From a virus: 26,253 nucleotides of DNA. A program made the translations under genes and the position numbers. Every line of letters starts with the position of its first letter. Position 1 is the first letter of the stretch. Under the pieces are notes generated by a model. It saw only the letters and a list, made by a program, of their open reading frames with translations, ran no database searches and was not told the origin of the DNA. Below are positions 7,565 through 25,890 of this stretch, piece by piece. The stretch spans positions 1-26,253 of the IMG/VR virus record IMGVR_UViG_3300028394_002134. One strand, given 5' to 3'.

Positions 7565-7877
7565 AGGTGTAGATTATTGTTTTATCTATCCAAAGAATGA
7601 TGGTACATCGGTACACATTAGGTTTTTGGATGGACCATATAAAGATACCATATTTAAATATGGTAAGGTAAAGTTTGAAGAAAAGAATGACCAAGTCTAT
7701 TTACTTTTTGCTTATGATGTGTTAGAATCTCCAGTAGACAAGCCCAAGAAATTGGAAAAAGATGAGAAGTTTAAAAATTACCTAGGTGATTTACTTGTTG
7801 AAATTATGGGTAATAATATAGAACAGGAAGTGGCTGATGAAACTGGAACAAGCGATACTAAAGAATTTGGTCTATAA
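7557..7877 (+). CDS. Unknown 106-aa protein between uvsX and gene 41
   Basis: I do not recognise this protein. It starts with a beta-rich region (VDYCFIYPKND, then VHIRFLDGPYKDTIFKYGKVKFEE) followed by a charged helical C-terminal half. The ATG at 7557 is chosen because CGGAGA lies at 7545-7550; longer versions of this frame would start inside the previous gene. Its 3' end overlaps the helicase start by 41 bases, a deep overlap that argues for translational coupling. By position it may serve helicase loading or recombination, which is inference only. Confidence 0.7.
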   Translation: MIEGVDYCFIYPKNDGTSVHIRFLDGPYKDTIFKYGKVKFEEKNDQVYLLFAYDVLESPVDKPKKLEKDEKFKNYLGDLLVEIMGNNIEQEVADETGTSDTKEFGL

Positions 7878-9225: not shown

Positions 9226-9416
9226 TGCTCAATAAAATAAAAAATGTAAATATTAAATTTCATGGCGAATGGAATCCAAAAACACATCAGGTCATATTAA
9301 GATATGATCCAAGGTCTAATTTAGGATTTAGTGTATCTATGGTTTCTATTAATGAAGAACCACCAATTAACAATTTTGATTTGGCTAACAAAGCATTAGA
9401 AAAATTTAGAATATGA
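9222..9416 (+). CDS. Small hypothetical protein, 64 aa
   Basis: A short open frame bridges gp41 and the next gene with 4-base overlaps at both ends, which makes it more likely to be real. The product looks like a small beta-rich domain (NIKFHGEWNPKTHQVILRYD, then GFSVSMVSI) followed by one helix. I do not recognise it and see no motif or membrane segment. Confidence 0.6.
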   Translation: MMLNKIKNVNIKFHGEWNPKTHQVILRYDPRSNLGFSVSMVSINEEPPINNFDLANKALEKFRI

Positions 9417-10525: not shown

Positions 10526-11767
10526 ATGGCAGACGAAACCTCAAAAGCTGAATCGGCTCAAGCATTATTTTGTGCTCTGGCGGATTATCTCGGATCTAGT
10601 ACAATAAATGAAGTATTCGATTTAAATAAATTTCCAAATTATTTGTCTTTCAAAAAAAATTGGAATCAAAATTATTCCGCAGCAAAAATTGAAAGCACTT
10701 TTAAATCTCATGTTGACGCTGATGCCAGTTTAACTGAAGTTGAACAATTATTATCTGGTACAAACTCATCAAATCCTAAAACTAAAGATGATTGGTATAA
10801 ATCATCACTATTAATTGCTAAAAAATTAATTCAGGATATTAATTCAATTAGTAAAGAATTTTCAAGTATTAAACAACCTTCTTGGTCATCTATTTTTTAT
10901 GTTCGTGGTGATAAAGATGTTATGGCAAATATTGCCGAATTATATAAAAGAGCAAATGATACACAAAAGATATTGATTAAAGAAGGTTCTAGTGGTATTT
11001 CTTTTTCCAATATTAATAAATGGTCTCCAGCTGACATATACTTTGCTTCACCTAAAGCAAAAAAAGAAATATCCGATGAAGTTTCTAGTAATAAGAAAAT
11101 GACTTTTTCTGTTTTAAATAAAATGATTAGTAAAATGATATCTGACGGTCAATTATTACCACTATCATTAAAGAAGCAAACAAAAGAAGTCAAGCTTGAG
11201 AAGGTCAATTTTAATCGACCATCTGAACTTAAAAAACTTAAAAATATTGAATTTGGTGGAACAAACAATTGGAAAATATATACAAAACCAAAACCAGGAG
11301 AAAAAAAGATTGCCAGGTATTTTGCAATATATTTAAATAAAGATGAAACAGAAGAAATAACATTCAGACATGATCCTTCAGGATCTGGAGGATTTAAAGC
11401 TGAAATTAAAATTGCAGGCATGGAAGCAAGAAGCGGTAGTTTAAGTCAAGGTCCACTTGTTAGTATTTTTAGTCTTGTTGATTCCGGTTTTGCATCAAAA
11501 TTTGATAGAACAGTAAATGATGCAATGAAAGAATTTAGAAAAAATAAAGTATTTTATAGACAACAATATGATAAAAAAGTAATAGATAGAAAAGAATATG
11601 ATTTTGAAGTTGGAGCTTTAAGTGCTTTGGATGTAACCAACAAAGTTATTCCATTGATTATAGAATGGTTGAAAAATAAAAAATATGCTGATGAATTTGC
11701 TCGTGTTGTGTATCAATATGCAACATCTCGATCTGAAGATTCATCAAAATTCGTAATAGCAAAATAA
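10526..11767 (+). CDS. Unknown 413-aa protein, possible nuclease-like fold
   Basis: I do not recognise a named family. Two motifs stand out: NKWSPADIYFAS (164-175) and LLPLSLKKQ (210-218). Tryptophan-x-P-x-D-I followed about 45 residues later by S-L-K-K recalls the aspartate and lysine positions of PD-(D/E)xK nucleases, but the middle acidic residue is replaced by serine, so this is weak. The gene is richer in A and T than its neighbours, with many AAA, ATT and TTA codons, which may mean later acquisition. It starts 3 bases after the previous stop. Confidence 0.5.
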   Translation: MADETSKAESAQALFCALADYLGSSTINEVFDLNKFPNYLSFKKNWNQNYSAAKIESTFKSHVDADASLTEVEQLLSGTNSSNPKTKDDWYKSSLLIAKKLIQDINSISKEFSSIKQPSWSSIFYVRGDKDVMANIAELYKRANDTQKILIKEGSSGISFSNINKWSPADIYFASPKAKKEISDEVSSNKKMTFSVLNKMISKMISDGQLLPLSLKKQTKEVKLEKVNFNRPSELKKLKNIEFGGTNNWKIYTKPKPGEKKIARYFAIYLNKDETEEITFRHDPSGSGGFKAEIKIAGMEARSGSLSQGPLVSIFSLVDSGFASKFDRTVNDAMKEFRKNKVFYRQQYDKKVIDRKEYDFEVGALSALDVTNKVIPLIIEWLKNKKYADEFARVVYQYATSRSEDSSKFVIAK

Positions 11768-11776
11768 AAGTTAATA

Positions 11777-12082
11777 ATGGCACTAATAGATTTTGATAAA
11801 CTATCCAAAGAGTTTGATGGCGTTGATGACTTTGGTTTTTCTGCCGTATCTGAGGAAGAATATAAAGCGGTTATTACGAATGCAGCCAAAGATGCAGAAT
11901 ATGAAGCATCTTCATTAACTGCTAGCAATTACAGAAGTCAACTATTGGAATTGGAGAAGATGATTATACCATTTCTCACCAAACTACATTCTACTGGAGA
12001 CAAAGAATATATATATTGGCCTAACCGCAAACCAGTAATAGAGAAACAAATAGAAAATATATTGAAACTGACTAGAGGATAA
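11777..12082 (+). CDS. Small acidic conserved-looking protein, 101 aa
   Basis: The product has an acidic N terminus (DGVDDFGFSAVSEEEY), a helical middle (LLELEKMIIPFLTKL) and a C-terminal stretch YIYWPNRKPVIEKQIENI. I recall similar small proteins, with the YIxWPNR segment, in many T4-type aquatic phages, but without a function. It lies 9 bases after the previous gene and one base before the first glycosyltransferase, so it marks the border between the replication block and the glycan block. Confidence 0.7.
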   Translation: MALIDFDKLSKEFDGVDDFGFSAVSEEEYKAVITNAAKDAEYEASSLTASNYRSQLLELEKMIIPFLTKLHSTGDKEYIYWPNRKPVIEKQIENILKLTRG

Positions 12083-12083
12083 T

Positions 12084-12797
12084 ATGAGTGCTACCGTGAT
12101 TATACCAACTACGGGTTCACCGGAGTTGAGAAAGGCTGTTCAAAGTGTACTTGAACAAACCTATGAAACAAAATGTTATATTATTTCGGATGGGTTACAA
12201 AACCATTCTAGGACAAGGAATATTGTTGATTCTTTTCCTGGTAAGAATATAGAAAAATGTTATTTGCCTTTGAATGTTGGTGCCAATGGATTTTATGGCC
12301 ACCGTATCTATGCCGCTTTCACACACCTAATTAACACCGAATATGTACTATATTTGGATCAAGATTGTTGGTTCGAAAAAGACCATGTAAAGAACTGTAT
12401 TGAGAAGATTGAAATTGATAAAAAAGATTGGTCATATTCATTAAGAAACATAACTAACAAAGATGGCAACTTTCTATGTAAAGATGATTGTGAATCTTTA
12501 GGTAGATGGCCAGTATTTTCTGGTGATTATAGTCATATAGACACAAATTGCTATTGCCTTAAAACTCATCATGCTATACAATTAGCATCTGTCTGGCACG
12601 GTGGTTGGGGACAAGATAGAGTTTGGTTTGATGTATTATCACGGAACTTACCTAACTATAATTGTACAGGTGAATATACTGTGAATTATCGTGTTGCTGG
12701 AAATGAAGGTTCTGTTGTACCAGAATTCTTCTATCAAGGCAATCAAATTATGAATGAAAAATATAATGGAGTATTACCATGGCGAAAGAAAATCTAA
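12084..12797 (+). CDS. Family 2-like glycosyltransferase (GT-A fold)
   Basis: The N terminus SATVIIPTTGSPELRKAVQS is the classic opening strand of GT2 enzymes. The metal and nucleotide-sugar motif is LDQD (91-94), and GGWGQDR (173-179) occupies the acceptor/catalytic region. The 237-residue length fits a single GT-A domain with no membrane segment. The enzyme should move a sugar from a nucleotide donor to an acceptor; neither is predictable. It opens a run of glycan genes and overlaps the next one by 19 bases. Confidence 0.85.
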   Translation: MSATVIIPTTGSPELRKAVQSVLEQTYETKCYIISDGLQNHSRTRNIVDSFPGKNIEKCYLPLNVGANGFYGHRIYAAFTHLINTEYVLYLDQDCWFEKDHVKNCIEKIEIDKKDWSYSLRNITNKDGNFLCKDDCESLGRWPVFSGDYSHIDTNCYCLKTHHAIQLASVWHGGWGQDRVWFDVLSRNLPNYNCTGEYTVNYRVAGNEGSVVPEFFYQGNQIMNEKYNGVLPWRKKI

Positions 12798-13645
12798 TTA
12801 TTGGTGGATTTACCAACTATAACTACAATCAACTTAAACCTTGGGTTGAATCAATTTGCGAAGTAATGCCGGATGCACATAGAGTTATGTGTGTCGGTAA
12901 TGCAACAGATGAAACCAAATCAATTTTAGCTAACAAAGGATTTGAACTGGTTGATATGCCAGAAGCCAATATTCCTGTACACGTTTTAAGATTCCTTTCC
13001 ATCTATGATTATCTTTCTAAGAATTGGCAGAAATATAACCATGTCATTACAACAGATGTGAAAGATGTTTATTTTCAGACAGACCCATTTGAATGGTTAG
13101 ACTACCACAATATTGGTGTTAAAGATATGAAACAACTTGTGGCAGGTGCAGAATCTATTCGTTACAAAGATGAATCATGGGGCAACCAAAACTTAATGGA
13201 AACTTATGGCGGTTACATCTATAGTAAATTTAAAGATAATGAAATCTACAACGTAGGAGTACTCGCAGGTTCATCCGAATATATTAAAGACTTGGTGTTC
13301 AACATCTTCAGTAATGCAGTTAACCGACCTATTCCTATCGTTGACCAGGCGGTCTATAATGTATTGATTCAAACTCAACCGTATAAGAATGTTGTTCACT
13401 ATACAAAACAACATGAAGCTTGGGCTGTACAGGCAGGAACAGTTGCTGATCCATCTAAGATTGATGGTTTCAGGCCGAATTTAACCGACCTTGAACCTGT
13501 ATTCCATGATGGTATTGTTTCTAATTCATTAGGTAAACCTTTCTGTATTGTACATCAATATGACCGTGTGCCTGAATGGAAAGAATTTGTACAGAAGAAA
13601 TTCAAACAGGATGACCCATCACAGTTCTTTACATACAAGGTTTAA
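12779..13645 (+). CDS. Putative glycosyltransferase (GT-A type)
   Basis: The 288-residue protein has a Rossmann-like start (LIIGGFTNYNYNQLKPWVES), then HVLRFLSIYDYL (68-79) and TTDVKDVYFQTDP (91-103), where D93 and D96 replace a DxD motif. A YNVGVLAGS stretch and DQAVYN in the second half are also typical of GT-A enzymes handling acceptor sugars. The donor is unknown. The start lies inside the previous gene, 19 bases before its end, so the two are probably co-translated. Confidence 0.7.
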   Translation: MAKENLIIGGFTNYNYNQLKPWVESICEVMPDAHRVMCVGNATDETKSILANKGFELVDMPEANIPVHVLRFLSIYDYLSKNWQKYNHVITTDVKDVYFQTDPFEWLDYHNIGVKDMKQLVAGAESIRYKDESWGNQNLMETYGGYIYSKFKDNEIYNVGVLAGSSEYIKDLVFNIFSNAVNRPIPIVDQAVYNVLIQTQPYKNVVHYTKQHEAWAVQAGTVADPSKIDGFRPNLTDLEPVFHDGIVSNSLGKPFCIVHQYDRVPEWKEFVQKKFKQDDPSQFFTYKV

Positions 13646-13646
13646 T

Positions 13647-14456
13647 ATGAATGAAATTAGTATTGTGACGGCCTTCTTTGATATAGGCCGAGGTGATTGG
13701 ACTCCAGAAAAAGGACTACCACACTATCTACAAAGAACAAATGATACATACTTTGAAAGATTTGCCAATATGGCAAGTTTGGATAATACTATTGTTGTTT
13801 ACACATCTGAAGATTTAGCCGAAAAAGTTTGGGAAATTAGAAAAGATAAAACGGACAAAACAGTTGTTATCACAATAGATTTTGAGGACCAATTTGGTGA
13901 ATATCGTGAAAAGATTAGAAAGATACAAAACAATCTCGAATTCTTGGCTATGATTAATCCGAATCAAGTTAAAAATCCAGAGTATTGGTCATCAGATTAT
14001 GTACTTGTGAATTTTCTTAAATCACATTTTGTTAATCATTCAATTGGTGCTGGTGTATTTGATACTGATTTAATTGCATGGTTGGATTTTGGATACTGCC
14101 GTGAACCATCTACACTAAACAATGTTAAATTGTGGGAATATCCTTTTAATAAAGATAAAATACATCTATTCAATATCAAAGACTTTAATCCCAATACTCC
14201 AATAACTAGTATCATATCTAATAATGATGTACATATCACTGGACCTTGTATTGTTTCAAGTCAAAAGATGTGGCCTGAATTGGAGAGATTAATGAATCAG
14301 AGCTTTGATGAATTGATATCCAAAGATTTGATTGATGATGACCAAACACTATTGTTAATGTCCTCATTAATTGAACCCGACAAATTTGAATTACACCCAA
14401 TCTCACCTAATGATTGGTTTATTGCTTTTAGGAAATATAATGAAAATATATCTTAA
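13647..14456 (+). CDS. HtrL/YibB (WlaTC)-family glycosyltransferase-like protein
   Basis: The opening IVTAFFDIGRGDW and the following YFERFANMASLDNTIVVYTS are the signature of the HtrL/YibB family, linked in bacteria to lipopolysaccharide or lipooligosaccharide clusters (for example WlaTC of Campylobacter). WLDFGYCRE in the middle probably replaces the DxD site. ATG 13647, two bases (AT) after the upstream stop, is chosen because it places the family's conserved N terminus at the start; longer in-frame options lie inside the previous gene. The product is 269 residues. Confidence 0.75.
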   Translation: MNEISIVTAFFDIGRGDWTPEKGLPHYLQRTNDTYFERFANMASLDNTIVVYTSEDLAEKVWEIRKDKTDKTVVITIDFEDQFGEYREKIRKIQNNLEFLAMINPNQVKNPEYWSSDYVLVNFLKSHFVNHSIGAGVFDTDLIAWLDFGYCREPSTLNNVKLWEYPFNKDKIHLFNIKDFNPNTPITSIISNNDVHITGPCIVSSQKMWPELERLMNQSFDELISKDLIDDDQTLLLMSSLIEPDKFELHPISPNDWFIAFRKYNENIS

Positions 14457-15186
14457 TGGAACTGCCAATCTCGGCGACTTTTTGAACGCACTGCCTGTCA
14501 TGTCGGGTATTAGTAAAACGTATGGTAAATATTCTTTAACTATCAAAAAAGAAATGAGAAAGTTTAAAGGACTTGTAGAATTCCTAATGCATCAGGACTT
14601 ATTCACAGATGTTATGTTTGATGATGAGGTGTTTATGTATGGTGATATCATGCAAATGAGTTCTTGGCCTATCAGAGAAGATAAGAAGGATCCAAATAGA
14701 CCAATTGAAACTTGTCGTTATGAAAATTTTATGAAAGATAATTTTGGAATGACATTTGATGTTGATGATAATTTCATCATCAAGACTCCAGAATTCGATA
14801 TTGAAATTAAAGACAAATATTATGTTGGTGATAGGTGGGCTATTGGTGAAATTGATACACGTAGGAAAACCCATATACTTTCACATTTAAGTAATTGTGA
14901 ATTTATTGATTTTGATAGAACTATGTTAGAAAATGCTTACATTATTAAAAACTTAAATAAACCATTTATTACCAATTTTACTGGCGTCGGTATTATGGCC
15001 GACTTACTCAATAAAGAATTATATTGTGTATGGAAAGCAGAAGATTGGAATCCAGAATTCAGAGTTGGTGATGATATATCTTGGGATAACGGTAAAAACA
15101 TTGACAAAATATTTGAAAAGCATTTTTATCTGAATCGTAATGCTCGTTTAATTCATGCAAATCGTTTGGAAGGTATGATGACATGA
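14440..15186 (+). CDS. Putative GT-B type glycosyltransferase
   Basis: The 248-residue product starts with MKIYLNGTANLGDFLNALPV, close to the GD-x-L-x-x-LP opening of family 9 (heptosyltransferase-like) enzymes. Near its end GVGIMADLLNKELYCVW resembles the donor-site segment in which such proteins recognise the nucleotide sugar. It is shorter than typical family 9 enzymes (over 300), so it may be a reduced phage form. ATG 14440 is preferred because it gives this N terminus; it overlaps the previous gene by 17 bases. Confidence 0.55.
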   Translation: MKIYLNGTANLGDFLNALPVMSGISKTYGKYSLTIKKEMRKFKGLVEFLMHQDLFTDVMFDDEVFMYGDIMQMSSWPIREDKKDPNRPIETCRYENFMKDNFGMTFDVDDNFIIKTPEFDIEIKDKYYVGDRWAIGEIDTRRKTHILSHLSNCEFIDFDRTMLENAYIIKNLNKPFITNFTGVGIMADLLNKELYCVWKAEDWNPEFRVGDDISWDNGKNIDKIFEKHFYLNRNARLIHANRLEGMMT

Positions 15187-15869
15187 ATATAGTATCTAAA
15201 GACACAGCAATATTAATTACTTCTTATACTGGAGGTAATGATCCAGAACACCATAGTTGTGGAGATTATTCAATCGTACAAAGAAAACGAAGAATGCTCC
15301 GTACTTTGGTAAAATATTTAAAAGAAACTGGTTATTATATCTGTCTTTCTTCACACTCAATATTAGACGAAGAAACACAGAGTTATTGTCATTCATCAAT
15401 TTATGATTCAGACAATCGTTGGCAAATAGATGGTGTGCCAACTAGACCAAATCATGGCGTTGCTGAAATGACAGCTATACACAATGGTCTAAATTTATTG
15501 AATCGTTATGAATTTAAAAATGTATTGAAACTTTGTTATGACCAACATCCAGATTTGGATTATTCAAAACTAATTAAAAAATTTGAATCACTAGATAAAA
15601 AACTTATAACATTACAAGACAATTATGGTGTTGGTACATTATGTTTCTTTGGTAATATTCAGTTTATTAGAGACACGTTTTCTATGAATGAAATTTGGAG
15701 ATGTGAAAGTGCTGTAGAAAGAGCATGGCTTGGTTCTATCAGAGACAAAAAATTAACTGAACAAATTTATGGTTATTCAACTTATGATGAAATGTTAGAA
15801 TTACCACCTAACTCAGTACATCATTTCGCTTCTATGGATGGAAATACATTACATGACTACAATTATTGA
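15183..15869 (+). CDS. Unknown protein in glycan cluster, possibly a glycosyltransferase
   Basis: The 228-residue protein begins with a strand and loop (AILITSYTGGNDPEHHSCGD) followed by RKRRMLRTLVKYLKETGYYI, the alternating strand-helix layout of a GT-A or similar nucleotide-binding fold. NHGVAEMTAIHNGLNLL (about 90-106) and WRCESAVERAWLGSI (177-191) are the most distinctive parts; the second resembles the acceptor-site region of viral GT-A enzymes. There is no clear DxD. The start overlaps the previous stop by 4 bases. Function is inferred mainly from the neighbours. Confidence 0.5.
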   Translation: MNIVSKDTAILITSYTGGNDPEHHSCGDYSIVQRKRRMLRTLVKYLKETGYYICLSSHSILDEETQSYCHSSIYDSDNRWQIDGVPTRPNHGVAEMTAIHNGLNLLNRYEFKNVLKLCYDQHPDLDYSKLIKKFESLDKKLITLQDNYGVGTLCFFGNIQFIRDTFSMNEIWRCESAVERAWLGSIRDKKLTEQIYGYSTYDEMLELPPNSVHHFASMDGNTLHDYNY

Positions 15870-16578
15870 TATTAAACCTGGAACTTTTGGTGGTGCTTTA
15901 CGTAATGGTGATATGATTGGTGTTGCTAATGTTGTTGAGTATCTAAGAAAGATTAGAAAAGATCCAACAATTAAGTTTAACATAATACAAGAATGGCCAG
16001 GAATAAGTTCTGAAAAATATTGCCAAGATTTCTATCAATTCTTATTAAACGCAACAGACTATTTCACAATTCTTCCTGGCCAAGAAACTTTGCCTTGGCG
16101 TAGAGTTAATTTGTGGGACTTTAGAGATATATCCGGCGACTTGGTTAAGATACCAAACAAAGTGGAAATGAAAAAGAAGATTGTAGTATTTCCACTATTT
16201 GATGCTCCATACAACACATATCGAAATTGGCCAAATATTCTATTTGAAGACATACTTGACAAATATAGTACCAATGAATATCATGATTATGAAAAAATTA
16301 TTTGTGTAAAAGATAGACATAATAGACCGGACTATAAAGAGTGGAAATATTCATATGATTTCATGGATAATATTCACCACATCCAAGAGGCAGAAATCTT
16401 TGTTGGTGGTGATACTGGTACTAGCCACTTTGCATGGGCTCTTGACAGGGGACCAGCAGAACTGATATACTACAACTCTAGTCGTGGACTTGTTCACACT
16501 TTACCGTTTTATCTAATTCAAGGTAAAGGTAAATTGAATACATATTGGTTGGATTTTGAGAGTACACAATGGCAATAG
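15853..16578 (+). CDS. Putative GT-B / family 9-like glycosyltransferase
   Basis: The 241-residue protein has GGALRNGDMIGVANVVEYLR near its start and, late in the sequence, FVGGDTGTSHFAWALDRGPA, which matches the donor-binding G-x-D-T-G-x-x-H-x-A element of family 9 heptosyltransferases and the related ADP-heptose:LPS enzymes. ATG 15853 is used; another in-frame ATG at 15838 is possible. Either way the start lies inside the previous gene. The short length and lone C-terminal half of the signature suggest a divergent enzyme. Confidence 0.6.
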   Translation: MTTIIDIKPGTFGGALRNGDMIGVANVVEYLRKIRKDPTIKFNIIQEWPGISSEKYCQDFYQFLLNATDYFTILPGQETLPWRRVNLWDFRDISGDLVKIPNKVEMKKKIVVFPLFDAPYNTYRNWPNILFEDILDKYSTNEYHDYEKIICVKDRHNRPDYKEWKYSYDFMDNIHHIQEAEIFVGGDTGTSHFAWALDRGPAELIYYNSSRGLVHTLPFYLIQGKGKLNTYWLDFESTQWQ

Positions 16579-17249
16579 GAATTACTTGCATTGATACATT
16601 ACACTATACGCCCACCATTGATGCTTTAAAAAGAACAATACAAACTCTAGGAGATAAAATCACTAGAGTTTATTGGTTTTCGGATATTGATTTTCCTGAA
16701 GACATTGGTGTACCAGTTACATGGATAGTCATACCTAAAATACAAATATATAATGATGATTATAGTCATATTACTTTAAAATTGTGTCCTGAAGTTTGTA
16801 CAGAAGAATATAATCTAATCATACACGGAGATGGATTTGCAGTTAATGCTGATGCTTGGACTGATGAGTTTTTGAATTATGATTATATTGGTGCTCGTTG
16901 GGGTGACGGCTTAGTTGGTAACGGTGGTTTCTGTTTACGTTCACGTAAACTTTATGATGTGTTTCTAAGTCTGAAGATAAAAAATCTTAGTTCAGATTAT
17001 ATGGACTATATGAACGACATATCTGCTTATGTTATCGATGGTGAAGGTAAGAAGTGGATTCCAGAAGACAATATTATTTGTAAGATACATAGATACACAC
17101 TAGAAAGTATTTACAATATTAAATTTGCTCCACCAGAATTGGCAGACAGATTTAGTATAGAACACAATTATGGTTCACCTTGGTTAGGTAAGAGTTTAGG
17201 GTTTCACGGCAAACATGGTATTGCCGAATATTATGGAGTTAAATTATGA
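16569..17249 (+). CDS. DUF5672-type glycosyltransferase-like protein
   Basis: The signature is strong: LIIHGDGFAVNADAWTDEFL, then YDYIGARWGDGLVGNGGFCL (105-124), W-I-P-E-D in the second half, FAPPELADRFSIEH, and a closing GFHGKHG. These mark the DUF5672 group found in sugar-transfer clusters. HGDGF supplies the acidic metal site. It overlaps the previous gene by 10 bases and the dehydratase by 4 bases. The transferred sugar is not known. Confidence 0.8.
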   Translation: MAIGITCIDTLHYTPTIDALKRTIQTLGDKITRVYWFSDIDFPEDIGVPVTWIVIPKIQIYNDDYSHITLKLCPEVCTEEYNLIIHGDGFAVNADAWTDEFLNYDYIGARWGDGLVGNGGFCLRSRKLYDVFLSLKIKNLSSDYMDYMNDISAYVIDGEGKKWIPEDNIICKIHRYTLESIYNIKFAPPELADRFSIEHNYGSPWLGKSLGFHGKHGIAEYYGVKL

Positions 17250-18277
17250 GTAAGAATGTTTTGATTACAGGTGGTGCTGGCTTTATTGCGCATCATGTGA
17301 TTGATAAGATGCTTAGAGAAACAGATTGGAAAATTATTTGTTTAGATAGATTAGATATTTCAGGTAATTTAAATCGATTGCATGATATGTTACAAGACCA
17401 TGACTCAAAGGTTGTGTCTAGTAGATTACGTATTGTGTTTCATGATTTGAAAGCGGAACTAAATGAAATGATTATCAAAGACATTGGTCCTGTTGATATC
17501 ATCCTACATTTAGCAGCCGGCAGTCACGTAGACCGTAGTATTGAATTTCCAATGGAGTTCGTACAAGATAATACAGTTGGCACAGTTAATATGCTTGACT
17601 ATGCTCGTAAACATCTTCCTAATCTGGAACGATTTGTATATTTCTCCACAGATGAAATCTTTGGCGTGGCACCTCCTGGTGTTTCATACAAAGAATATGA
17701 CCGATACAACTCTACAAATCCATACTCAGCATCCAAAGCTGCAGCAGAAGAATTTTGTGTTGCTTATGAAAACACCTATAAGATGCCAATCGTTGTTACA
17801 CACACAATGAATGTGTTTGGTGAGCGTCAACATCCAGAGAAGTTTATTCCTATGTGTATTCAACGTGCCAGAGATGGTGAAAAGATATTCATTCATGCTG
17901 ACCCAACCAGAACACAGGCAGGTACTCGTATGTACATTCATGCAAAAGATGTTGCAGAAGGCTTAATGTTTATTCTAGGACTTAAAGATTATAAACACAC
18001 AGGCGATTATGGTCACGCTCATTGTCCTAAATTCAATCTTGTTGGTACCGAAGAAATAGATAATCTAACATTAGCACACATGATTGCTGATGCACAAGAT
18101 AAAGAACTTGTTTATGAAATGGTTGACTTTCACGGCAGTAGACCTGGACACGATTTACGATATGCCTTAGATGGTGGTTTATTGAAGTCACTTGGCTGGG
18201 AACCTAAGATTAAACTGAGTGAACGTATTAAAGAGATGACATTATGGACACTAGAAAATAAAAGGTGGTTGAAATGA
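17246..18277 (+). CDS. NAD-dependent sugar-nucleotide 4,6-dehydratase
   Basis: This short-chain (SDR) enzyme binds NAD through GGAGFIA (9-15). It has the dehydratase triad T135-D136-E137 in STDEIFG, the catalytic YSASK (Y160, K164), then NVFGERQHPEKFIP and SRPGHDLRYALD near the end, all as in RmlB-type dTDP-glucose 4,6-dehydratases. TDE separates dehydratases from plain epimerases, so it should produce a 4-keto-6-deoxy sugar nucleotide, the entry point for the dehydrase at 20769 and the methyltransferase at 19580. CDP- or dTDP-glucose are both possible; the N terminus looks more RmlB-like. No nucleotidyltransferase that makes the substrate is visible, so the host may supply it. Confidence 0.88.
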   Translation: MSKNVLITGGAGFIAHHVIDKMLRETDWKIICLDRLDISGNLNRLHDMLQDHDSKVVSSRLRIVFHDLKAELNEMIIKDIGPVDIILHLAAGSHVDRSIEFPMEFVQDNTVGTVNMLDYARKHLPNLERFVYFSTDEIFGVAPPGVSYKEYDRYNSTNPYSASKAAAEEFCVAYENTYKMPIVVTHTMNVFGERQHPEKFIPMCIQRARDGEKIFIHADPTRTQAGTRMYIHAKDVAEGLMFILGLKDYKHTGDYGHAHCPKFNLVGTEEIDNLTLAHMIADAQDKELVYEMVDFHGSRPGHDLRYALDGGLLKSLGWEPKIKLSERIKEMTLWTLENKRWLK

Positions 18278-18852
18278 TTAAAGAAGTAGGCAAACACACT
18301 TATGGAACCGACACTTACACAACAACGGTAAGAGAATTTATCTCTTATGCTGACCCAACAAGACCTTCTGTCAACATTGGTGCTTTTACTGGAATAGGAT
18401 TAGGATGTAGATTTTTTCCATCCGAAGGTGTTGCACATAATCCTAAAGCTTGTACGAATTATGCATTTGGTAATTTAGGTCCAAGAAACGAAATATTCAA
18501 CAACATTGCAATTCTACCAAAAGTTCAAACTAAAGGAGATATCAATATTGGTTCTGATGTTTGGTTTGGAGAATCTGTTACTGTCATGTCTGGTGTTACT
18601 GTTGGCCATGGTGCTGTTGTCGCAACAAACTCTCATGTATTTAAAGACATTGAACCATATGCAATATATGGTGGCAATCCAGCAAAATTAATAAAATTCC
18701 GTTTTGATAAAGAAATTATTGATGCTCTTTTAGAAATGAAATGGTGGGATTTGCCAGACGAAATGATTAATAAAATTCTACCATTGTTACAACAAGAACC
18801 TACGATGGAAATTATTAATCAAATAAATCAAATTATCAAAGGCGGAAACTAA
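18274..18852 (+). CDS. Left-handed beta-helix (hexapeptide) acetyltransferase
   Basis: The 192-residue protein has imperfect hexapeptide repeats (INIGSDVWFGESVTVMSG, VTVGHGAVVATNSHV) and the closing YGGNPAKLIKFRF seen in CatB/xenobiotic-type acyltransferases, which transfer acetyl groups from acetyl-CoA. The catalytic histidine is probably one in the FPSEGVAHN region or at VGHGAVV. In this setting it most likely O- or N-acetylates a sugar. ATG 18274 overlaps the dehydratase stop by 4 bases and follows AGGTGG; an upstream start at 18265 is less likely. Confidence 0.82.
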   Translation: MIKEVGKHTYGTDTYTTTVREFISYADPTRPSVNIGAFTGIGLGCRFFPSEGVAHNPKACTNYAFGNLGPRNEIFNNIAILPKVQTKGDINIGSDVWFGESVTVMSGVTVGHGAVVATNSHVFKDIEPYAIYGGNPAKLIKFRFDKEIIDALLEMKWWDLPDEMINKILPLLQQEPTMEIINQINQIIKGGN

Positions 18853-19580
18853 TGGCTTCATTAGGCATATATCATTGGAACAAAGATAATAAATCCGGAT
18901 TAGACGCCTCGATTGCCTCTTTTCGTAAGTATCATCCAAATGCACCATATTTTGTTGCTTGTGATGCTGCTGGTGGTTCACACTATGATGTATGTAGAAA
19001 ATATAATGTAAACTATCTTCACGCAGATTTTGATTTAGGTTATCCATCACCACATTGGGGTTTCGATAAACTACGTGTATTTAATTTTGTTAAACGAATG
19101 ATGATGGCTGCTATTTGTATGAATACAACACATTTTATTATTTCTGAAGATGATGTGATTTGTTTGAATGAGATACAATTTGATGAGACTTGGGACGTTG
19201 CTTCATATGATATTACTGTTGGAAATTATATCAATCAGGATATATTAGATACCTGTGAGAGAATCTCTGGTGTTAAACCAGACAGAAAACAATATGGTGT
19301 TGGTGCAGGAACAATTATGAAAACGTCAACATTCATTCAAAATTTTTATAGATTTGTTGAATTTCTAGATAAAGATTTTGATAGACTACACCAAAACCAA
19401 TCACAACTAGGATGGAATGATTGTTTTCTACAAGTTTACTTCTTCCTATGTGGTGTTAAATATAATGTTAATCCAAGATTACACAATATTTTTCCAGAAA
19501 ATCCAAATCTGGATTTGAATGAGATGAAGAATCATTATGATATGGTTCACAACTATAAGAATTTTTATGAAGGTAGATAA
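18852..19580 (+). CDS. Putative glycosyltransferase (GT-A type)
   Basis: The 242-residue protein starts with a strand, then SIASFRKYHPNAPYFVACDA as in GT-A enzymes that act on sugar chains. HFIISEDDVICLNE (near residues 94-107) provides the acidic metal site in the E-D-D form. GVGAGTIMKTSTF and LGWNDCFLQVYF follow in the expected acceptor region. The start codon shares one base with the previous stop, and the stop shares one base with the next ATG, so the whole segment is compressed. Donor and acceptor are unknown. Confidence 0.65.
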   Translation: MASLGIYHWNKDNKSGLDASIASFRKYHPNAPYFVACDAAGGSHYDVCRKYNVNYLHADFDLGYPSPHWGFDKLRVFNFVKRMMMAAICMNTTHFIISEDDVICLNEIQFDETWDVASYDITVGNYINQDILDTCERISGVKPDRKQYGVGAGTIMKTSTFIQNFYRFVEFLDKDFDRLHQNQSQLGWNDCFLQVYFFLCGVKYNVNPRLHNIFPENPNLDLNEMKNHYDMVHNYKNFYEGR

Positions 19581-20767
19581 TGGACTTAACTGAAATTAAA
19601 AGATGTTTGGCTTGTGACTCGGATCAATTAGTTCCGGTACTTGATTTAAATGACCAGCCGTTGGCTAATTCCTACAAAAAGAATAAAGATGACCACGAAG
19701 ATTCATACCCATTAAAAATTCACAGGTGTGAAAATTGTTATCATGTGCAGTTGACTCACGCTGTTAATCCAGACCTAATCTATAAAAACTACCTGTATGT
19801 GAGTGGAACTACCAGTACCTATGTTGAATATATGGATTGGTTTGCCGATTTCTGCCTTGAAAAGTATGGTAGAATCACACCATTCACAGTATTAGATATT
19901 GGTTGTAATGACGGTTCACAGTTGAATAAATTTAAAGCCCGTGGTATTAAAACATATGGTGTTGATCCAGCTGAGAATTTACATAGCCTATCTTCTGCCA
20001 ACCATGAAGTTGTGTGTGGATATTTTGATGAGACTTATTCAAATAAGGCCGATATCATTGTTTGTCAGAATGCTTTTGCTCATAATCCTAATCCAATTGA
20101 GTTTTTAAAGAACTGTAAAAGGAATTTAGAACATTCAGGATTAATCTTTATTCAAACATCTCAAGCGAATATGATTCTGAATAATGAATTTGATACAATT
20201 TACCACGAACATATTTCATTCTACAATATTCATTCGATGAAGTTATTGTGTAGAAGAGCGGGGTTGAACCTGATTGATGTGGTGAAAACACCCATTCATG
20301 GCATAAGTTATATATTTGTTATTAGTGCAGATAAAACTGCCGAAGCTACTGTTAAAAATCTAATTGATATGGAAGCAGTTGCTGGTTTATACAAGACAAA
20401 GACTTATTGGGAATATGAAAGTAAATGTTTGAACATGGTTAGTTCGTTCAGCACGTTTGTTGACTACTGTAGAGACCAGGGATATAAGATTATCGGTTAT
20501 GGTGCACCAGCCAAAGGTAACACGTTGTTGAATTTCTCAAAAGTAAAAATGGATATGATTATTGATGATAATCCATTGAAACAAGGTCTGTATACTCCAG
20601 GTTCTTCTATTGGTATAGTTGGTTCAGATGTATTGAAATCTTTCACAGAAGATGATAAACTAATGTTTGTACCTTTGGCATGGAACTTCTTTGATGAGAT
20701 ACGTAAACGTATTCTGGCACAAAGAAACAATCCAAATGATAAATTTTTAAACTTGAAAGACTTGTAA
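19580..20767 (+). CDS. SAM-dependent sugar C-methyltransferase
   Basis: The 395-residue enzyme has the three-part layout of sugar C-methyltransferases such as TylC3 and NovU. There is an N-terminal zinc site (C9, C12, C50, C53), a Rossmann core with VLDIGCNDGS (104-113) for S-adenosylmethionine, the YHEHISFYN catalytic segment (208-216), and a C-terminal domain with IIGYGAPAKGNTLLN. The family adds a methyl group to C3 (or C5) of a 4-keto-6-deoxy sugar nucleotide. That substrate would come from the dehydratase at 17246. The start overlaps the previous stop by one base. Confidence 0.88.
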   Translation: MDLTEIKRCLACDSDQLVPVLDLNDQPLANSYKKNKDDHEDSYPLKIHRCENCYHVQLTHAVNPDLIYKNYLYVSGTTSTYVEYMDWFADFCLEKYGRITPFTVLDIGCNDGSQLNKFKARGIKTYGVDPAENLHSLSSANHEVVCGYFDETYSNKADIIVCQNAFAHNPNPIEFLKNCKRNLEHSGLIFIQTSQANMILNNEFDTIYHEHISFYNIHSMKLLCRRAGLNLIDVVKTPIHGISYIFVISADKTAEATVKNLIDMEAVAGLYKTKTYWEYESKCLNMVSSFSTFVDYCRDQGYKIIGYGAPAKGNTLLNFSKVKMDMIIDDNPLKQGLYTPGSSIGIVGSDVLKSFTEDDKLMFVPLAWNFFDEIRKRILAQRNNPNDKFLNLKDL

Positions 20768-20768
20768 G

Positions 20769-22052
20769 ATGGAATATAGTGATATGATTCAGGCTCTATC
20801 GAAGAATAGGCCCGCTTATGCAAAGAACTATGATAACTATGAAGAAGGACAATTTGTTCAATATTCAGGTCAATTGTGGGACGAAAATGAAATGTATGCT
20901 GCCATGGATACATTACTGAATGGTAAGTGGATTACCTCAGGCGAAAAAGTAGCACAGTTTCAAATGAAGTTCAGTAAAAAGTTCCAAGTGAAGAATTCTC
21001 ACATGGTCAATTCAGGTAGTTCCGCTAACTTGGTGATGATTACTGCATTGAAACATTATATGAAATGGAAGAACGGTGATGAGATTATTGTGTCACCTGT
21101 GGGATTTCCAACAACAATTGCACCTATTGAACAGAATGGTTTGAAGGCAGTCTTTATTGATATTGAATTAGACACACTTAACTTTGACCTCACCAAGATT
21201 GAAGAAAAGATTACACCAAAAACCAAAGGTATCTTTGTGTCTCCAGTTCTTGGTAATCCTCCTAATATGGACATTTTACGTGATATTTGTACAAAATACG
21301 GAATTCTATTGATTGGTGATAACTGTGATTCGTTAGGTTCTAACTATGATGGAAAAATGTTGACAGACTATTACTACTGTTGGTCTACATCATTCTATCC
21401 CGCACACCATATCTCTACAGGTGAAGGTGGAATGGTTTGTACTAATGATGATGGTCTGATTAATATCATGCGTTCCGTGTCGTGGTGGGGTCGTGACTGT
21501 TACTGTATTGGTTCTAACAATCTATTGGAATGTGGTACTTGTGGTAATCGATTTGATACCTGGTTGAATAACTATGATGGTGTTGTTGACCACAAATACG
21601 TGTTCTCTACAATGGGATATAATCTGAAACCACTAGACCTACAAGGTGCTATTGGTATTGAACAGTTGAAAAAGTTTGAATATATTGATGAGAAACGCCG
21701 TGAATATAAAAACAAAGTTCAGAAGTTTATTGAAGATAATGTAAAAGAGGTAAGAGTAATTAATGCCTTACCTAAAGGTGACCCATCTTGGTTTGGTGTG
21801 CCAATCTATTGTGAATCACAAGAAGTAAAAGAAAAGTTAGTTGCTCACTTTGAAGCTAATAAAATTCAAACTCGTAATTACTTTAGTGGCAACATCTTAA
21901 TACATCCTGGTTATGAACACTTAGATAATTATAAAAACTATCCTAATTCCAATTTAGCACTCAGTAATGTATTTTTTGTTGGTTGTTCTCCTCTGTGGAA
22001 CGATAAGATTCTAAATTACATTGAAAAGGTGTGTAAGAAATGGAAAAGTTAA
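20769..22052 (+). CDS. RfbH/E1-type sugar-nucleotide 3-dehydrase (PMP, iron-sulfur)
   Basis: The fold is DegT/DnrJ/EryC1/StrS aminotransferase. In SFYPAHHISTGEGG (208-221) the usual cofactor-binding lysine is replaced by histidine (H213), the diagnostic change of CDP-6-deoxy-4-keto-glucose-3-dehydrase (E1/RfbH) and ColD. Cysteines 186, 244, 246 and 255 give C-x57-C-x1-C-x8-C, nearly the [2Fe-2S] spacing reported for E1 (last gap x7), which favours RfbH over ColD. The enzyme removes the C3 hydroxyl to give a 3,6-dideoxy-4-keto sugar. E1 needs electrons from a flavin/iron-sulfur reductase (E3), and none is in this window. It starts one base after the methyltransferase. Confidence 0.88.
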   Translation: MEYSDMIQALSKNRPAYAKNYDNYEEGQFVQYSGQLWDENEMYAAMDTLLNGKWITSGEKVAQFQMKFSKKFQVKNSHMVNSGSSANLVMITALKHYMKWKNGDEIIVSPVGFPTTIAPIEQNGLKAVFIDIELDTLNFDLTKIEEKITPKTKGIFVSPVLGNPPNMDILRDICTKYGILLIGDNCDSLGSNYDGKMLTDYYYCWSTSFYPAHHISTGEGGMVCTNDDGLINIMRSVSWWGRDCYCIGSNNLLECGTCGNRFDTWLNNYDGVVDHKYVFSTMGYNLKPLDLQGAIGIEQLKKFEYIDEKRREYKNKVQKFIEDNVKEVRVINALPKGDPSWFGVPIYCESQEVKEKLVAHFEANKIQTRNYFSGNILIHPGYEHLDNYKNYPNSNLALSNVFFVGCSPLWNDKILNYIEKVCKKWKS

Positions 22053-22876
22053 TCAATCTATTTGGTGGCTCTGGCTTCGTGGGTGGAAAATATGAAGAAC
22101 TGACACCAAATATTTTATGGTCAAATGAAAGAAATGATTATAAAGTAAAATCAAACAATACTCATCCACTTGATATTGTATATTTCATTTCGACCATCGA
22201 TAATTATAACGTACATACCGACCCGTTCATAGATATAGATACTAATCTAACCACTCTGATAAAGGTCTTGGAATCTTGCAAGAATAAGAATGTCTGTTTC
22301 AACTTTATAAGTTCTTGGTTCGTTTATGGCGATGTAGAGTTGCCAGCCAAAGAAGACTCACATTGTGACCCAAAAGGATTCTATTCAATTACCAAAAGAA
22401 CTGCCGAACAGTTGTTAATTTCATATTGTGAAACGTTTGGTATTCAATGGAGAATCTTACGTTTAGGTAATGTTCTCGGTAAAGGTGACAAGAAAGTATC
22501 CAAGAAAAAGAATGCCTTACAATATCTGATTAATGAGATTAAAGAAAACCGTGATATTAACCTATATGACGGTGGAGATTTATATCGTGATTACATCCAT
22601 GTGGATGATGTAGTACAGGCTATCAATCTAGTGATAGAAAAAGGACCTGTCGGTGAAATCTATAACATAGGTAATGGTGAGAAAGTGTATCTAAGAAATT
22701 CTTTGGAATATGTGAGAACCCGTCTTAATTCTATCTCCAAGTTCAACAGTATTGAAATTGTTGACTTTCATAAAAAAGTCCAAACCAAAAATATGGTCCT
22801 GGACATATCTAAAATTCAGCAGCTAGGGTATGTGCCTAAGTACAATACAGAACAAATGCTGGACAGTCTACTTTAA
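22040..22876 (+). CDS. NAD(P)-dependent sugar epimerase/reductase
   Basis: The 278-residue SDR-type protein has the nucleotide-binding GGSGFVG (9-15), serine in SSWFVYG (91-97), and the catalytic Y115-SIT-K119. It lacks the TDE of dehydratases, so it more likely epimerises or reduces. YIHVDDV and YNIGNG follow as in the NAD-dependent epimerase family. In 3,6-dideoxyhexose routes a protein of this type (RfbJ, RfbS) reduces the 4-keto group as the last step, which would fit directly downstream of the E1-like dehydrase. It overlaps that gene by 13 bases and is the last gene before a late promoter. Confidence 0.78.
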   Translation: MEKLINLFGGSGFVGGKYEELTPNILWSNERNDYKVKSNNTHPLDIVYFISTIDNYNVHTDPFIDIDTNLTTLIKVLESCKNKNVCFNFISSWFVYGDVELPAKEDSHCDPKGFYSITKRTAEQLLISYCETFGIQWRILRLGNVLGKGDKKVSKKKNALQYLINEIKENRDINLYDGGDLYRDYIHVDDVVQAINLVIEKGPVGEIYNIGNGEKVYLRNSLEYVRTRLNSISKFNSIEIVDFHKKVQTKNMVLDISKIQQLGYVPKYNTEQMLDSLL

Positions 22877-22947
22877 AAGCCAACAATCTCGTCACTATGT
22901 ATCTAACCGAATCTTTGTAAGGTTTGACTACGATAGGTTAAATGTTG

Positions 22948-22955
22948 TATAAATA
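22948..22955 (+). promoter_or_regulatory. T4-type late promoter (TATAAATA)
   Basis: An exact TATAAATA lies in the only sizeable gap (22877-22999) on the right side of the window. The transcript should begin near 22961-22963 and give a leader of about 38 bases before the ATG at 23000. It separates the glycan module from three genes that look virion-related, so it probably makes them late. The rest of the gap shows no clear terminator. Confidence 0.75.
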
Positions 22956-22963
22956 AGTAACCG

Positions 22964-22981
22964 GCAACCAAAGTGTGTTGC
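22964..22981 (+). other. 5' leader hairpin after late promoter
   Basis: GCAAC (22964-22968) and GTTGC (22977-22981) form a 5-bp stem around an 8-base loop. It falls within 1-3 bases of the predicted late transcript start and ends just before the ribosome site AAGGG (22987-22991). A hairpin at the extreme 5' end can protect mRNA from 5'-dependent decay; that role is inferred. Confidence 0.35.
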
Positions 22982-22999
22982 AATCTAAGGGAAAAATTA

Positions 23000-24193
23000 A
23001 TGCAATCGTTTTCAACATTCTTAAAAGAAGAATCCGGCGAAGGTTCGGAACTGAAGCACATCCACCATGCGGAAGATAGACCTTTGATGCATGGCCATGC
23101 CGGTTTTGAACACGCTCATGCTGCTTTAATGAAGGCACACGCTAATATGACATCTGGTGCCAAAAGTAGTAATCTAACGATGAAGTATGACGGTTCTCCA
23201 TCAATCGTATTCGGACACCACCCTAAGAATGGTAAATTCTTTGTTGCTACTAAATCTGCCTTCAACAAGAATCCAAAGATTAACCACACAGAAAAAGATA
23301 TTGACAAGAACCATGGCCATGCACCAGGTCTTGCTCATGCTCTAAAACACGCTCTCAAACATCTACCAAAAGTATCACCAAAAACTGGTGTATATCAAGG
23401 TGATTTGATGCACCATGCTGATACAAAGGTATTGAAAGAAGAATATTTGTTTGAAGCAGAAAAAAATAAAGTCTCTTTTACACCAAATACAATAACCTAT
23501 ACTGCTCACGGTAAAGAAGCAGACAAGATTAAAAGGTCTAAGGTTGGTGTAGTGGTTCACAGTAAGTATAGTGCTGACATGAAAAGTGCTTCACCTCATG
23601 TCGACCATGGGAATTTTAAAGAGCATCCAGATGTTCATATTCATGGCGCAGAACACGATACTTCTAAAGTAAAACACTCAGCTGCCAATGAAACAGGATT
23701 TCAAAAACATATGGCAGCCGCCAAAGAAATCCACGATACTCACGGCCACAAGATGTATGATTCTATTCATCCATCACATTCTGGTGAACATGGCCACCTT
23801 TCAACTTATATCAATAAAACAGTTAGACATGATGAAGTTCCTTCTGTCAAAGGTTTCAAAGAACACATAAAAGATGTACATGAGAAACAAGCAGCCAAAG
23901 TGAAGACCGAAAAGTCTAAATCTGAAAAAACTGGTGAAGGCGCCAAACAAATTAGCCACGTTGAAAAACACAAAGCACATTATGGTAATTTATTGACTAT
24001 GCATCATCACCTAGCACAAGCTAAGAATCACTTGGTTAATTCATTAGAAACTCATGAGGGTAATTATCAACATCACATTGGCGGCAAGAAATCTAAACCA
24101 GAAGGTTTTGTTGTACACCACGATAATCAACCTACTAAGTTGGTTAATCGTCCAGAATTTGCCAAACAAAATCTATTAAAAGTACGTAAATGA
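23000..24193 (+). CDS. His-rich protein with ligase-type nucleotidyltransferase motifs
   Basis: The 397-residue protein shows motifs in the order of covalent nucleotidyltransferases (RNA/DNA ligases). K62-Y-D-G65 stands in the place of motif I, whose lysine takes the nucleotide. Y-x-GDLM (132-137) resembles motif III, VGVVVHSKY (182-190) motif IIIa, EGFVV (368-372) motif IV, and a lysine-bearing stretch (380-389) motif V. Histidine makes up about 50 of 397 residues. It begins MQSFSTFLKE, the shape of T4 capsid-targeting peptides. ATG 23000 follows AAGGG; an upstream non-ATG start at 22973 would overlap the leader hairpin. It could be an injected RNA ligase or a diverged relative with another substrate. 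No experimental function is known to me. Confidence 0.6.
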   Translation: MQSFSTFLKEESGEGSELKHIHHAEDRPLMHGHAGFEHAHAALMKAHANMTSGAKSSNLTMKYDGSPSIVFGHHPKNGKFFVATKSAFNKNPKINHTEKDIDKNHGHAPGLAHALKHALKHLPKVSPKTGVYQGDLMHHADTKVLKEEYLFEAEKNKVSFTPNTITYTAHGKEADKIKRSKVGVVVHSKYSADMKSASPHVDHGNFKEHPDVHIHGAEHDTSKVKHSAANETGFQKHMAAAKEIHDTHGHKMYDSIHPSHSGEHGHLSTYINKTVRHDEVPSVKGFKEHIKDVHEKQAAKVKTEKSKSEKTGEGAKQISHVEKHKAHYGNLLTMHHHLAQAKNHLVNSLETHEGNYQHHIGGKKSKPEGFVVHHDNQPTKLVNRPEFAKQNLLKVRK

Positions 24194-25890
24194 AATCTTT
24201 TTTAGAAGTTGTACAGGAAGAAAATAGTGGTGGTACACATCACGTTTTCACCTATGGTCGGATGAATCCGCCTACGACCGGACATTTAAAATTAATTGAT
24301 AAAGTCAAAGAAGTTGCTGCAAAACATAGTGCTGGTCATACTGTTATAACTTCACATAGCCAAGATAAGAATAAGAATCCATTATCTGCAACACAAAAGA
24401 TTAAACACCTAAAGAGATATTCTCCTGGTACTAATTTTAAGTCATCAGATAAAGAACATCCTTCATTTTTACACCAAGCTGCTAAGTTACACAAACAAGG
24501 TGTGACACACCTTCATATGGTTGTTGGTTCCGACCGTGTGAAAGAAATGAAGGATAAGTTACAAAAATTTAATGGTACGCACACTGGTGCCTTGTATAAT
24601 TTTAAAAAGATTCATGTACATTCTGCTGGCCAGCGTGATCCTGATGCTGAAGGCACAGAAGGTATGTCTGGTACCAAGATGCGTGCACACGCTAAAAGTA
24701 ATGATGTTTCTAAATTTAAACATGGCGTTCCAAGTCATGTTTCTGATACACACGCAAAAGAATTGATGCACGATACTCGTAAGGGTATGGGTATTCACGA
24801 ATCTTATAGTCACGGATTGTTTAGAGCAATCTTTGTAACTGGTGGTCCAGGTTCTGGTAAAGATATTGTTATCCGTGAAGCTATTGCTGAATCTAAGATT
24901 GTAGAATTAAATTTCATTCAAGCACAAGACTATTTGAATGACAAACAGAAGTTGGCGGAGAAGACTGGTGACCTCCGTAGAGAAGGTATTCGTAACCGTG
25001 GTCCACTTATTATTAATGGTCCGGCAGACGATAGAGATAGAATTGCTTTTATCAAAGAAGAATTGGAAGAACTTGGTTACGATACAATGATGATTTTTGT
25101 TGAAACCAATAATGAAACCAGTCAAAAGAGAAACTCATTATTGTCTAAAATGATGACGGAATCAATCAGACATGACAAGTGGATGAAGTCACAAGAAAAT
25201 ACTAAATATTTCAATGAGTCCTTTAAAACATTCATTTATTTTGACAATACTGGTGACCTAGATAGTAAAGAGGAAGATATACATTCAGTATACGAGTCAA
25301 CAAGTGAATTTTTGGGTTCTGAAACTTTAGGAGAGACAGCCGAAGATTGGCTGAATCGTAGAAGTGGTTCTTTATTTAAGGAAATTAAAAATGTTAAAAG
25401 CAATTTTAGGAATATTCAAGAAAACGCCCCAGGTCAACAACTCCAGCGAAAACTCGGAAAAGTTGATAGCGTCAAAGACGGAGACGTTAAGTACAACTCC
25501 AGTTACACCTTTAGAGCCTACAGTGAAGACGGTGGCCCCAAAGTCCAAGTCCTCCCCGAGCCAAAAGAAGCCAACTTCTCCAAGGACAAGGAAAAAGTAA
25601 AGTCTAAAAAGTTCTATAATAGAATGTTTGGTATGAATACTCAAGGTGTCGGTGTTGGGCCAACATTCAGTTCACGTTCTGGTTTACCAGCCGGTCTAGG
25701 TGACCAGACATACAAAGAACAAAAAGAATTTAGGAATTTTAGAAAAGTAATAGAAGCGATTGATGACCCAGGAGCAAATGATATGGGTGTCGGTGGCGTT
25801 CTTGGTGGTGGTAGTAATAAAGAGCCTCTAGTCACACCTAACGATAATAAAGTAAGAGTTTCGGAAATAACCAAAAAGAAAAAGAAATAA
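24190..25890 (+). CDS. Nucleotidyltransferase (HIGH family)-kinase fusion protein
   Basis: Residues 17-200 form a cytidylyltransferase/NMN-adenylyltransferase-like domain: GRMNPPTTGH (23-32) is the nucleotide-binding motif, GSDR (113-116) follows, and MSGTKMRA (159-166) is the ISxTxxR-type motif. Residues 211-380 look like a P-loop kinase domain with GGPGSGKD (218-225). The last 180 residues are polar, Gly- and Lys-rich. NadR also fuses an NMN adenylyltransferase to a kinase, so NAD-related chemistry is possible, but the substrate is not shown. The N terminus MKSFLEVVQE resembles a capsid-targeting sequence. The start overlaps the ligase-like gene by 4 bases. The 566-residue length is typical of the phage fusion. 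Confidence 0.7.
   Translation: MKSFLEVVQEENSGGTHHVFTYGRMNPPTTGHLKLIDKVKEVAAKHSAGHTVITSHSQDKNKNPLSATQKIKHLKRYSPGTNFKSSDKEHPSFLHQAAKLHKQGVTHLHMVVGSDRVKEMKDKLQKFNGTHTGALYNFKKIHVHSAGQRDPDAEGTEGMSGTKMRAHAKSNDVSKFKHGVPSHVSDTHAKELMHDTRKGMGIHESYSHGLFRAIFVTGGPGSGKDIVIREAIAESKIVELNFIQAQDYLNDKQKLAEKTGDLRREGIRNRGPLIINGPADDRDRIAFIKEELEELGYDTMMIFVETNNETSQKRNSLLSKMMTESIRHDKWMKSQENTKYFNESFKTFIYFDNTGDLDSKEEDIHSVYESTSEFLGSETLGETAEDWLNRRSGSLFKEIKNVKSNFRNIQENAPGQQLQRKLGKVDSVKDGDVKYNSSYTFRAYSEDGGPKVQVLPEPKEANFSKDKEKVKSKKFYNRMFGMNTQGVGVGPTFSSRSGLPAGLGDQTYKEQKEFRNFRKVIEAIDDPGANDMGVGGVLGGGSNKEPLVTPNDNKVRVSEITKKKKK
25391..25600 (+). CDS. Possible overlapping gene inside the fusion protein (+1 frame)
   Basis: A 69-codon frame lies wholly within the fusion gene, in the +1 frame. 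Its ATG is preceded by AAGGA at 25378-25382, a good ribosome site at 8-base spacing. The product would have a hydrophobic-basic N terminus (MLKAILGIFKKTPQ) and a Ser/Thr/Pro/Lys-rich tail ending RTRKK. The main frame in 25420-25580 uses more C/G-ending codons than the rest of the gene, as dual coding could cause. It may equally be chance. Confidence 0.25.
   Translation: MLKAILGIFKKTPQVNNSSENSEKLIASKTETLSTTPVTPLEPTVKTVAPKSKSSPSQKKPTSPRTRKK

Follow-up and report, generated by a model that had tools for sequence, protein, structure and literature searches.

A variable glycan-assembly island at a fixed site in T4-type phages, with a predicted 3,6-dideoxyhexose product

What glycan is assembled by a large array of sugar genes in a T4-type phage, when is it made, and to which acceptor is it attached? 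The question is raised by the IMG/VR virus record IMGVR_UViG_3300028394_002134, the full 26,253 bases of which form the window analysed here. In this window tRNA genes come first, followed by gp43, uvsX and gp41, and positions 12084-22876 hold an island of 13 plus-strand genes (named A to M), the junctions of which abut or overlap (about -19 to +1 nucleotides (nt)). The island comprises seven supported glycosyltransferases, five sugar-modifying enzymes and one gene (E) to which no function was assigned. We propose that it serves glycan assembly in the cytoplasm late in infection, most likely on virion proteins, an acceptor that we name tentatively. The T4-type setting is given by gp43 and gp41 (49.8% and 61.6% identity to those of syn9, respectively) and by UvsX, which stand in the T4-type order, and the gp23 capsid protein was present in five relatives (E about 1e-145). 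A first-pass annotation of the same DNA had described a large glycan assembly operon inside a T4-type phage, and the 13 abutting same-strand genes next to gp43, UvsX and gp41 bear this out. The five tailoring enzymes that it counted (H, I, K, L and M) are firm by family, and of its "about eight" sugar-transfer proteins seven were supported (A, B, C, D, F, G and J), as E matched nothing.

Relatives of L were encoded by 517 stretches in a search of the IMG/VR viral contigs, and the best 80 were fetched as the basis of the locus counts given below; many of these 80 loci are closely related, so that the counts are not counts of independent events. Wherever a fetched contig spanned the region, the array lay between gp41 (helicase; 7837-9225, plus strand), in some cases followed by a DruA-like gene, and the DUF6267 gene (family match; 23000-24193, plus strand), which are the left landmark and the right flank of the site; this recurrence argues that the arrangement is not due to chance. 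The 34 complete islands showed 19 gene orders, with 10 to 16 genes in 7.9 to 12.7 kb, around a fixed core of A, C, D, L and M (34/34), and B and F were present in 33 and 32 of them, respectively. L was followed by M in 79 of 81 phage loci, and a second type of dehydratase (S2) directly preceded L in 14 loci. Some islands had no dehydratase at all and would thus depend on a host enzyme. In syn9, MazG and a few further genes occupy the interval between gp41 and DUF6267, which in HTVC008M and Melnitz contains a single gene. Since this slot has one or a few genes in these three phages and the glycan clusters of S-SM2 and S-B05 lie elsewhere, the island is, by comparison of the loci, an insertion at one fixed place in this freshwater T4-type lineage. 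When 17246-22052 was compared with one relative (L014), H, I, J and L were 88-91% identical and A and B 55-58%; in another (L009), L was 93% and the adjoining M 68% identical. Such mosaic identity suggests allele swapping inside the island. Pairs of M and L were also found in bacteria, for example in a Nitrosomonadaceae genome and in Prochlorococcus single cells (L about 50-58% identical), and a Pirellula metagenome-assembled genome carried L (43%), M and H together. These arrangements support the idea that the enzymes work in one pathway and have been exchanged between phages and bacteria.

The sugar-making genes, all on the plus strand, point to a product that can be named. H (17246-18277), which was assigned as a nucleoside diphosphate (NDP)-glucose 4,6-dehydratase, matched the deoxythymidine diphosphate (dTDP)-glucose 4,6-dehydratase 6bi4 (E 8e-48), carries the STDE and YxxxK motifs, as does S2 of the relatives, and was 65% identical to a cyanophage family. 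Its score against TIGR01181 was 232.9 bits (under the cut-off of 365.1), and the dTDP-type score was above the cytidine diphosphate (CDP)-type one. I (18274-18852) is a hexapeptide O-acetyltransferase by family match. K (19580-20767) was assigned as a sugar 3-C-methyltransferase (D-mycarose 3-C-methyltransferase 4rv9, E 4.5e-58) with the Methyltransf_13/23/14 architecture of the MtmC/TcaB9 type, and its YHEH motif was kept in 27 of 27 relatives. L (20769-22052) is a predicted 3-dehydrase of the RfbH/E1 type, with the E1 3-dehydrase and ColD (3bcx, E 3.8e-70) as the closest solved relatives. Histidine replaces the lysine that binds pyridoxal phosphate (SFYPAHH, aligned to E1), and both this catalytic histidine and a four-cysteine motif were kept in all 81 full-length phage L proteins, the cysteines (in E1, the ligands of [2Fe-2S]) being spaced unlike those of 3bcx in the alignment. 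As the score against PRK15407 (368 bits) was short of the curated cut-off of 423, L is termed RfbH-type and not an RfbH equivalog. M (22040-22876), nearly always beside L, is a short-chain dehydrogenase/reductase by family match, without the dehydratase motif, and is likely a 4-ketoreductase. The family assignments of H, I, K, L and M are firm, and their likely product is a C-methylated 3,6-dideoxyhexose; we infer that H, L, K and M together yield an NDP-3-C-methyl-3,6-dideoxyhexose, although K could instead act on a separate branch, leading to a 3-C-methyl-6-deoxy sugar. Compared with the RfbH/E1 pathway for 3,6-dideoxyhexoses, to which L is linked by the catalytic histidine of E1 and, with another spacing, by a four-cysteine motif, the island differs by the added C-methyltransferase, by the dTDP-type score of H, and by the glucose-1-phosphate cytidylyltransferase, which was not found in the island.

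The sugar-transfer genes, on the same strand, are supported to differing degrees. A (12084-12797) belongs to glycosyltransferase (GT) family 2 (PF00535, 42.8 bits). B (12779-13645) is a GT-A-like transferase with weak matches to GT8 and Nucleotid_trans families, its DxxD being kept across 22 relatives. C (13647-14456) is an HtrL/YibB-family protein (210 bits; against PRK11346, 272.6 bits, below the cut-off of 342). For D (14440-15186) no family match was obtained and none was found among 50,697 phage records; its structure model (predicted local distance difference test (pLDDT) score, 88.8) was aligned over the full length to GT9 heptosyltransferases, the matches including a Veillonella GT9 protein (Z 13.7), WaaC (Z 13.5) and TibC (Z 11.8). 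Because the structure look-up also returned non-transferases, two of them at Z about 11 (chains of the NDH-PSI complex), the assignment is based on the best-ranked matches and the full-length coverage, by which D is supported as a compact GT9-like transferase of the GT-B fold. F (15853-16578) is a GT9-like transferase by a weak match (PF01075, 18.3 bits, under the cut-off of 22). G (16569-17249) is a DUF5672 protein (47.7 bits) with eight matches in the phage records, seven of them in phages that encode L (in one case on another contig from this single cell); it adjoins L in S-B05, S-H68, RB11-B and RN05-S, and the two are less than 2 kb apart in a 642-kb phage. Given this co-occurrence, G is likely the transferase for the dideoxysugar in whose synthesis L takes part. 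J (18852-19580) had no family match, and its model (pLDDT 88.9) gave 234 matches in the PDB at E<=1e-3, nearly all of the 50 listed being GT-A transferases; J is therefore a likely glycosyltransferase with the GT-A fold. E (15183-15869) was matched by neither family nor structure searches, and when profiles of B, E and G were compared with solved structures, no useful match was obtained.

The timing is indicated by the flanks. The T4-type late promoter motif TATAAATA is found on the plus strand at 10429-10436, in the 3' end of the druA-like gene and 97 nt before the open reading frame (ORF) at 10526, and again at 22948-22955, downstream of the island and before DUF6267, and both are candidate late promoters. 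Before DUF6267 it was exact in 73 of 78 relatives (76 of 78 when NATAAATA was allowed), and no exact copy was found at the 577 gene starts inside the islands. At the left boundary, NATAAATA was located 26 to 115 nt from the first gene in 21 of 24 spanning loci (eight exact), some of these matches overlapping a TAA stop codon, which eases chance matches. In a relative of 163,380 bases, TATAAATA occurred eight times on both strands, fewer than the 17 expected; each of the eight copies preceded a gene by 7 to 92 nt, one of them after gp41 and before the unit and another before DUF6267. From these positions we infer that the island is expressed late. Scans for sigma-70 promoters and terminators gave results near the chance level. 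The island had also been considered as a middle (replication-phase) unit abutting gp43-uvsX-gp41, which was dropped after the second late motif was seen at the gp41/druA end. Neither product nor timing had been specified in the first-pass annotation; to its operon can now be added the predicted (C-methyl) 3,6-dideoxyhexose route and the late-motif flanks.

The steps would be as follows, their order being our reconstruction. A 4,6-dehydratase (H, or S2 in some relatives, and otherwise presumably that of the host) would convert NDP-glucose to an NDP-4-keto-6-deoxy sugar, from which L would strip the 3-hydroxyl; K, in this island variant, would put a methyl group on C-3, M would reduce the ketone at C-4, and the product may be O-acetylated by I. 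The resulting 3,6-dideoxyhexose would probably be transferred by G, and the remaining transferases would add more sugars to give a short chain; as in chloroviruses, the acceptors would most likely be virion proteins, which are synthesised in the same period. In a hydropathy scan, no evident membrane protein was found among 684 island ORFs (one marginal hydrophobic segment was seen in four K proteins), and a system that is late, soluble and largely self-supplied suits virion proteins, with the precedent of the chlorovirus PBCV-1, which uses its own cytoplasmic machinery for unusual glycans and for which the capsid is the proven acceptor (PMC7826918). Several points weigh against this proposal. 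The E3 reductase partner needed by E1 was not seen in the island. The 3,6-dideoxyhexoses are classically sugars of lipopolysaccharide (LPS). D and F resemble LPS heptosyltransferases, though D is also like the protein heptosyltransferase TibC, and the HtrL/YibB family, to which C belongs, is associated with lipooligosaccharide (LOS) biosynthesis (PMC4172580). The upstream motif was missing in two divergent relatives (L069 and L070), and, the late promoters being read from the motif, read-through from the replication genes may occur.

Virion proteins are thus placed slightly ahead of the lipid A-core of the host, which is nearly as likely an acceptor. In that case the island would act as LOS outer-core loci do, lengthening the LOS/LPS core on the cytoplasmic side of the inner membrane, and the altered surface would stop progeny from sticking to debris and block competing phages. 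C as a member of a family of LOS loci, the GT9-like D and F, and the variable gene content between fixed flanks, as in serotype loci, speak for such a role; the absence of membrane proteins fits it as well, as core extension needs peripheral transferases alone, and Zaragoza-Solas et al. prefer O-chain modification for the pelagimyophages (PMC7029224). However, late-promoter motifs flank the unit, whereas in a lytic infection one would expect the host surface to be altered from early on; there is probably little new LPS synthesis at late times, and the GT9 fold modifies proteins too, as TibC indicates. In a further reading, the late promoters do not govern the island, which would be transcribed mainly in the middle phase with gp43-uvsX-gp41 and would act on an early target. 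We consider this improbable: the nearly gapless gene packing from gp43 through M and the two relatives without the upstream motif are in its favour, but 21 of 24 loci have the motif immediately ahead of the unit, and each exact motif in the 163-kb relative precedes a gene.

Two further acceptors were weighed against virion proteins. Glycosylation of virion DNA, which the first-pass annotation had disfavoured for lack of a nucleotide-hydroxymethylating enzyme in the window, is kept here as very unlikely. T4 glucosylates its own DNA, and virus-encoded transferases that hypermodify DNA are known (a reference within PMC12619734), but the size of the sugar-making set better suits a surface glycan. 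The lack noted before also holds beyond the window, as neither the thymidylate-synthase/dCMP-hydroxymethylase family (for which the positive controls matched) nor a C5 cytosine methylase was found in any of ten relatives, which include contigs of 160,983 and 163,380 bp and may be incomplete; DNA modification was set aside on these two absences. A Tet/JBP search was uninformative, since its control matched nowhere. O-antigen clusters usually hold dideoxyhexose pathways, in keeping with the idea that the cassette makes an O-antigen or capsule-like polymer exported across the membrane. For this idea we see hardly any likelihood, as the 684 ORFs include no evident membrane protein and hence the islands encode no flippase, polymerase, priming phosphoglycosyltransferase or oligosaccharyltransferase; the membrane flippase, polymerase and priming transferase of a Wzx/Wzy cluster have no evident counterpart. 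A lipid-carrier pathway of the cassette's own is excluded.

Large glycan islands in aquatic T4-type phages were already known. The glycan/LPS clusters of the T4-type cyanophages S-SM2, S-B05 and S-CAM7 are likewise large same-strand sets of transferase and nucleotide-sugar genes, and S-B05 shares homologues of L, M and G with the island, but these clusters are situated elsewhere in the genome, in S-B05 close to tail-fibre/endosialidase genes and in S-SM2 behind nrdB and tRNA genes, and the L relatives of the cyanophage clusters have just 27-55% identity to L of the island. The pelagimyophages (PMC7029224) are T4-type myophages of aquatic habitats as well, and they too have a variable region with numerous transferases; many of these are in a host recognition cluster with tail-fibre genes and not between gp41 and DUF6267, and the reported freshwater pelagimyophages are without LPS-related genes. 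The outer-core (OC) loci of Acinetobacter baumannii LOS (PMC4172580) resemble the island in their variable sets of transferase and sugar-modification genes between fixed flanks, one form having an HtrL/YibB gene, as C in the island, but they are on a bacterial chromosome and their acceptor is lipid A-core. PBCV-1, likened to the island for its cytoplasmic glycan machinery, is a virus of eukaryotic algae. In the literature we found no description of this enzyme set with its fixed site and variability, and nothing on RfbH in T4-like phages or on LPS genes of P-SSM2. What marks the present variant is the nameable product, the fixed site, the late flanks and the serotype-like variability. The target of phage glycan clusters, an open question, is narrowed by the fixed site, the late-motif flanks, the lack of membrane steps and the nameable sugar, which provides a mass-spectrometric signature to be sought on virions, host LOS and DNA, and the 19 gene orders are a natural series by which gene content can be linked to the glycan and to competition between phages. 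It is conceivable, although we would not favour it as a whole, that a widespread T4-type group coats its own virions with a self-made, largely self-supplied dideoxysugar glycan with serotype-like variation between syntenic phages; if so, the coating would be a bacteriophage counterpart of giant-virus glycosylation.

The genes around the island are described here for completeness. The DruA-like gene (9413-10522; PF14236, 32.5 bits, cut-off 27; phrog_19197) has this position, after gp41 and before the island, in many relatives as well; DruA itself belongs to the Druantia defence system. It is followed on the plus strand by a gene with no assigned function (10526-11767; a partial weak match in the syn9 gp182 region) and a small conserved gene that directly precedes the island and is seen in relatives (11777-12082). 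The protein encoded at 5218-6246, between gp43 and uvsX, has hydrophobic stretches near its N-terminus and is weakly matched to tetraspanin/coiled-coil proteins, and a 41% identical relative has the same position in the 163-kb phage. A cyanobacterial host was considered and not backed, psbA being absent from the ten relatives. Of 77 relatives, 16 have a motif, CACTATGTAT, between M and the downstream late-promoter motif (22877-22947); it did not occur at any other place in the 1.1 Mb of loci. Just 3' of that late-promoter motif (22956-22999) is a conserved leader element, GGCAACCAAAGTGTGTTGC, which can form a short hairpin and the core of which, AGTGTGTTGC, was found in 43 of 77 relatives. In 23000-25890, the DUF6267 and cytidylyltransferase-kinase proteins (and their neighbours in relatives) start with an M-K-x-F-x-x-F-L-x-E-like sequence; as such starts resemble the targeting sequences of T4 head-internal proteins, these proteins may be packaged and ejected.

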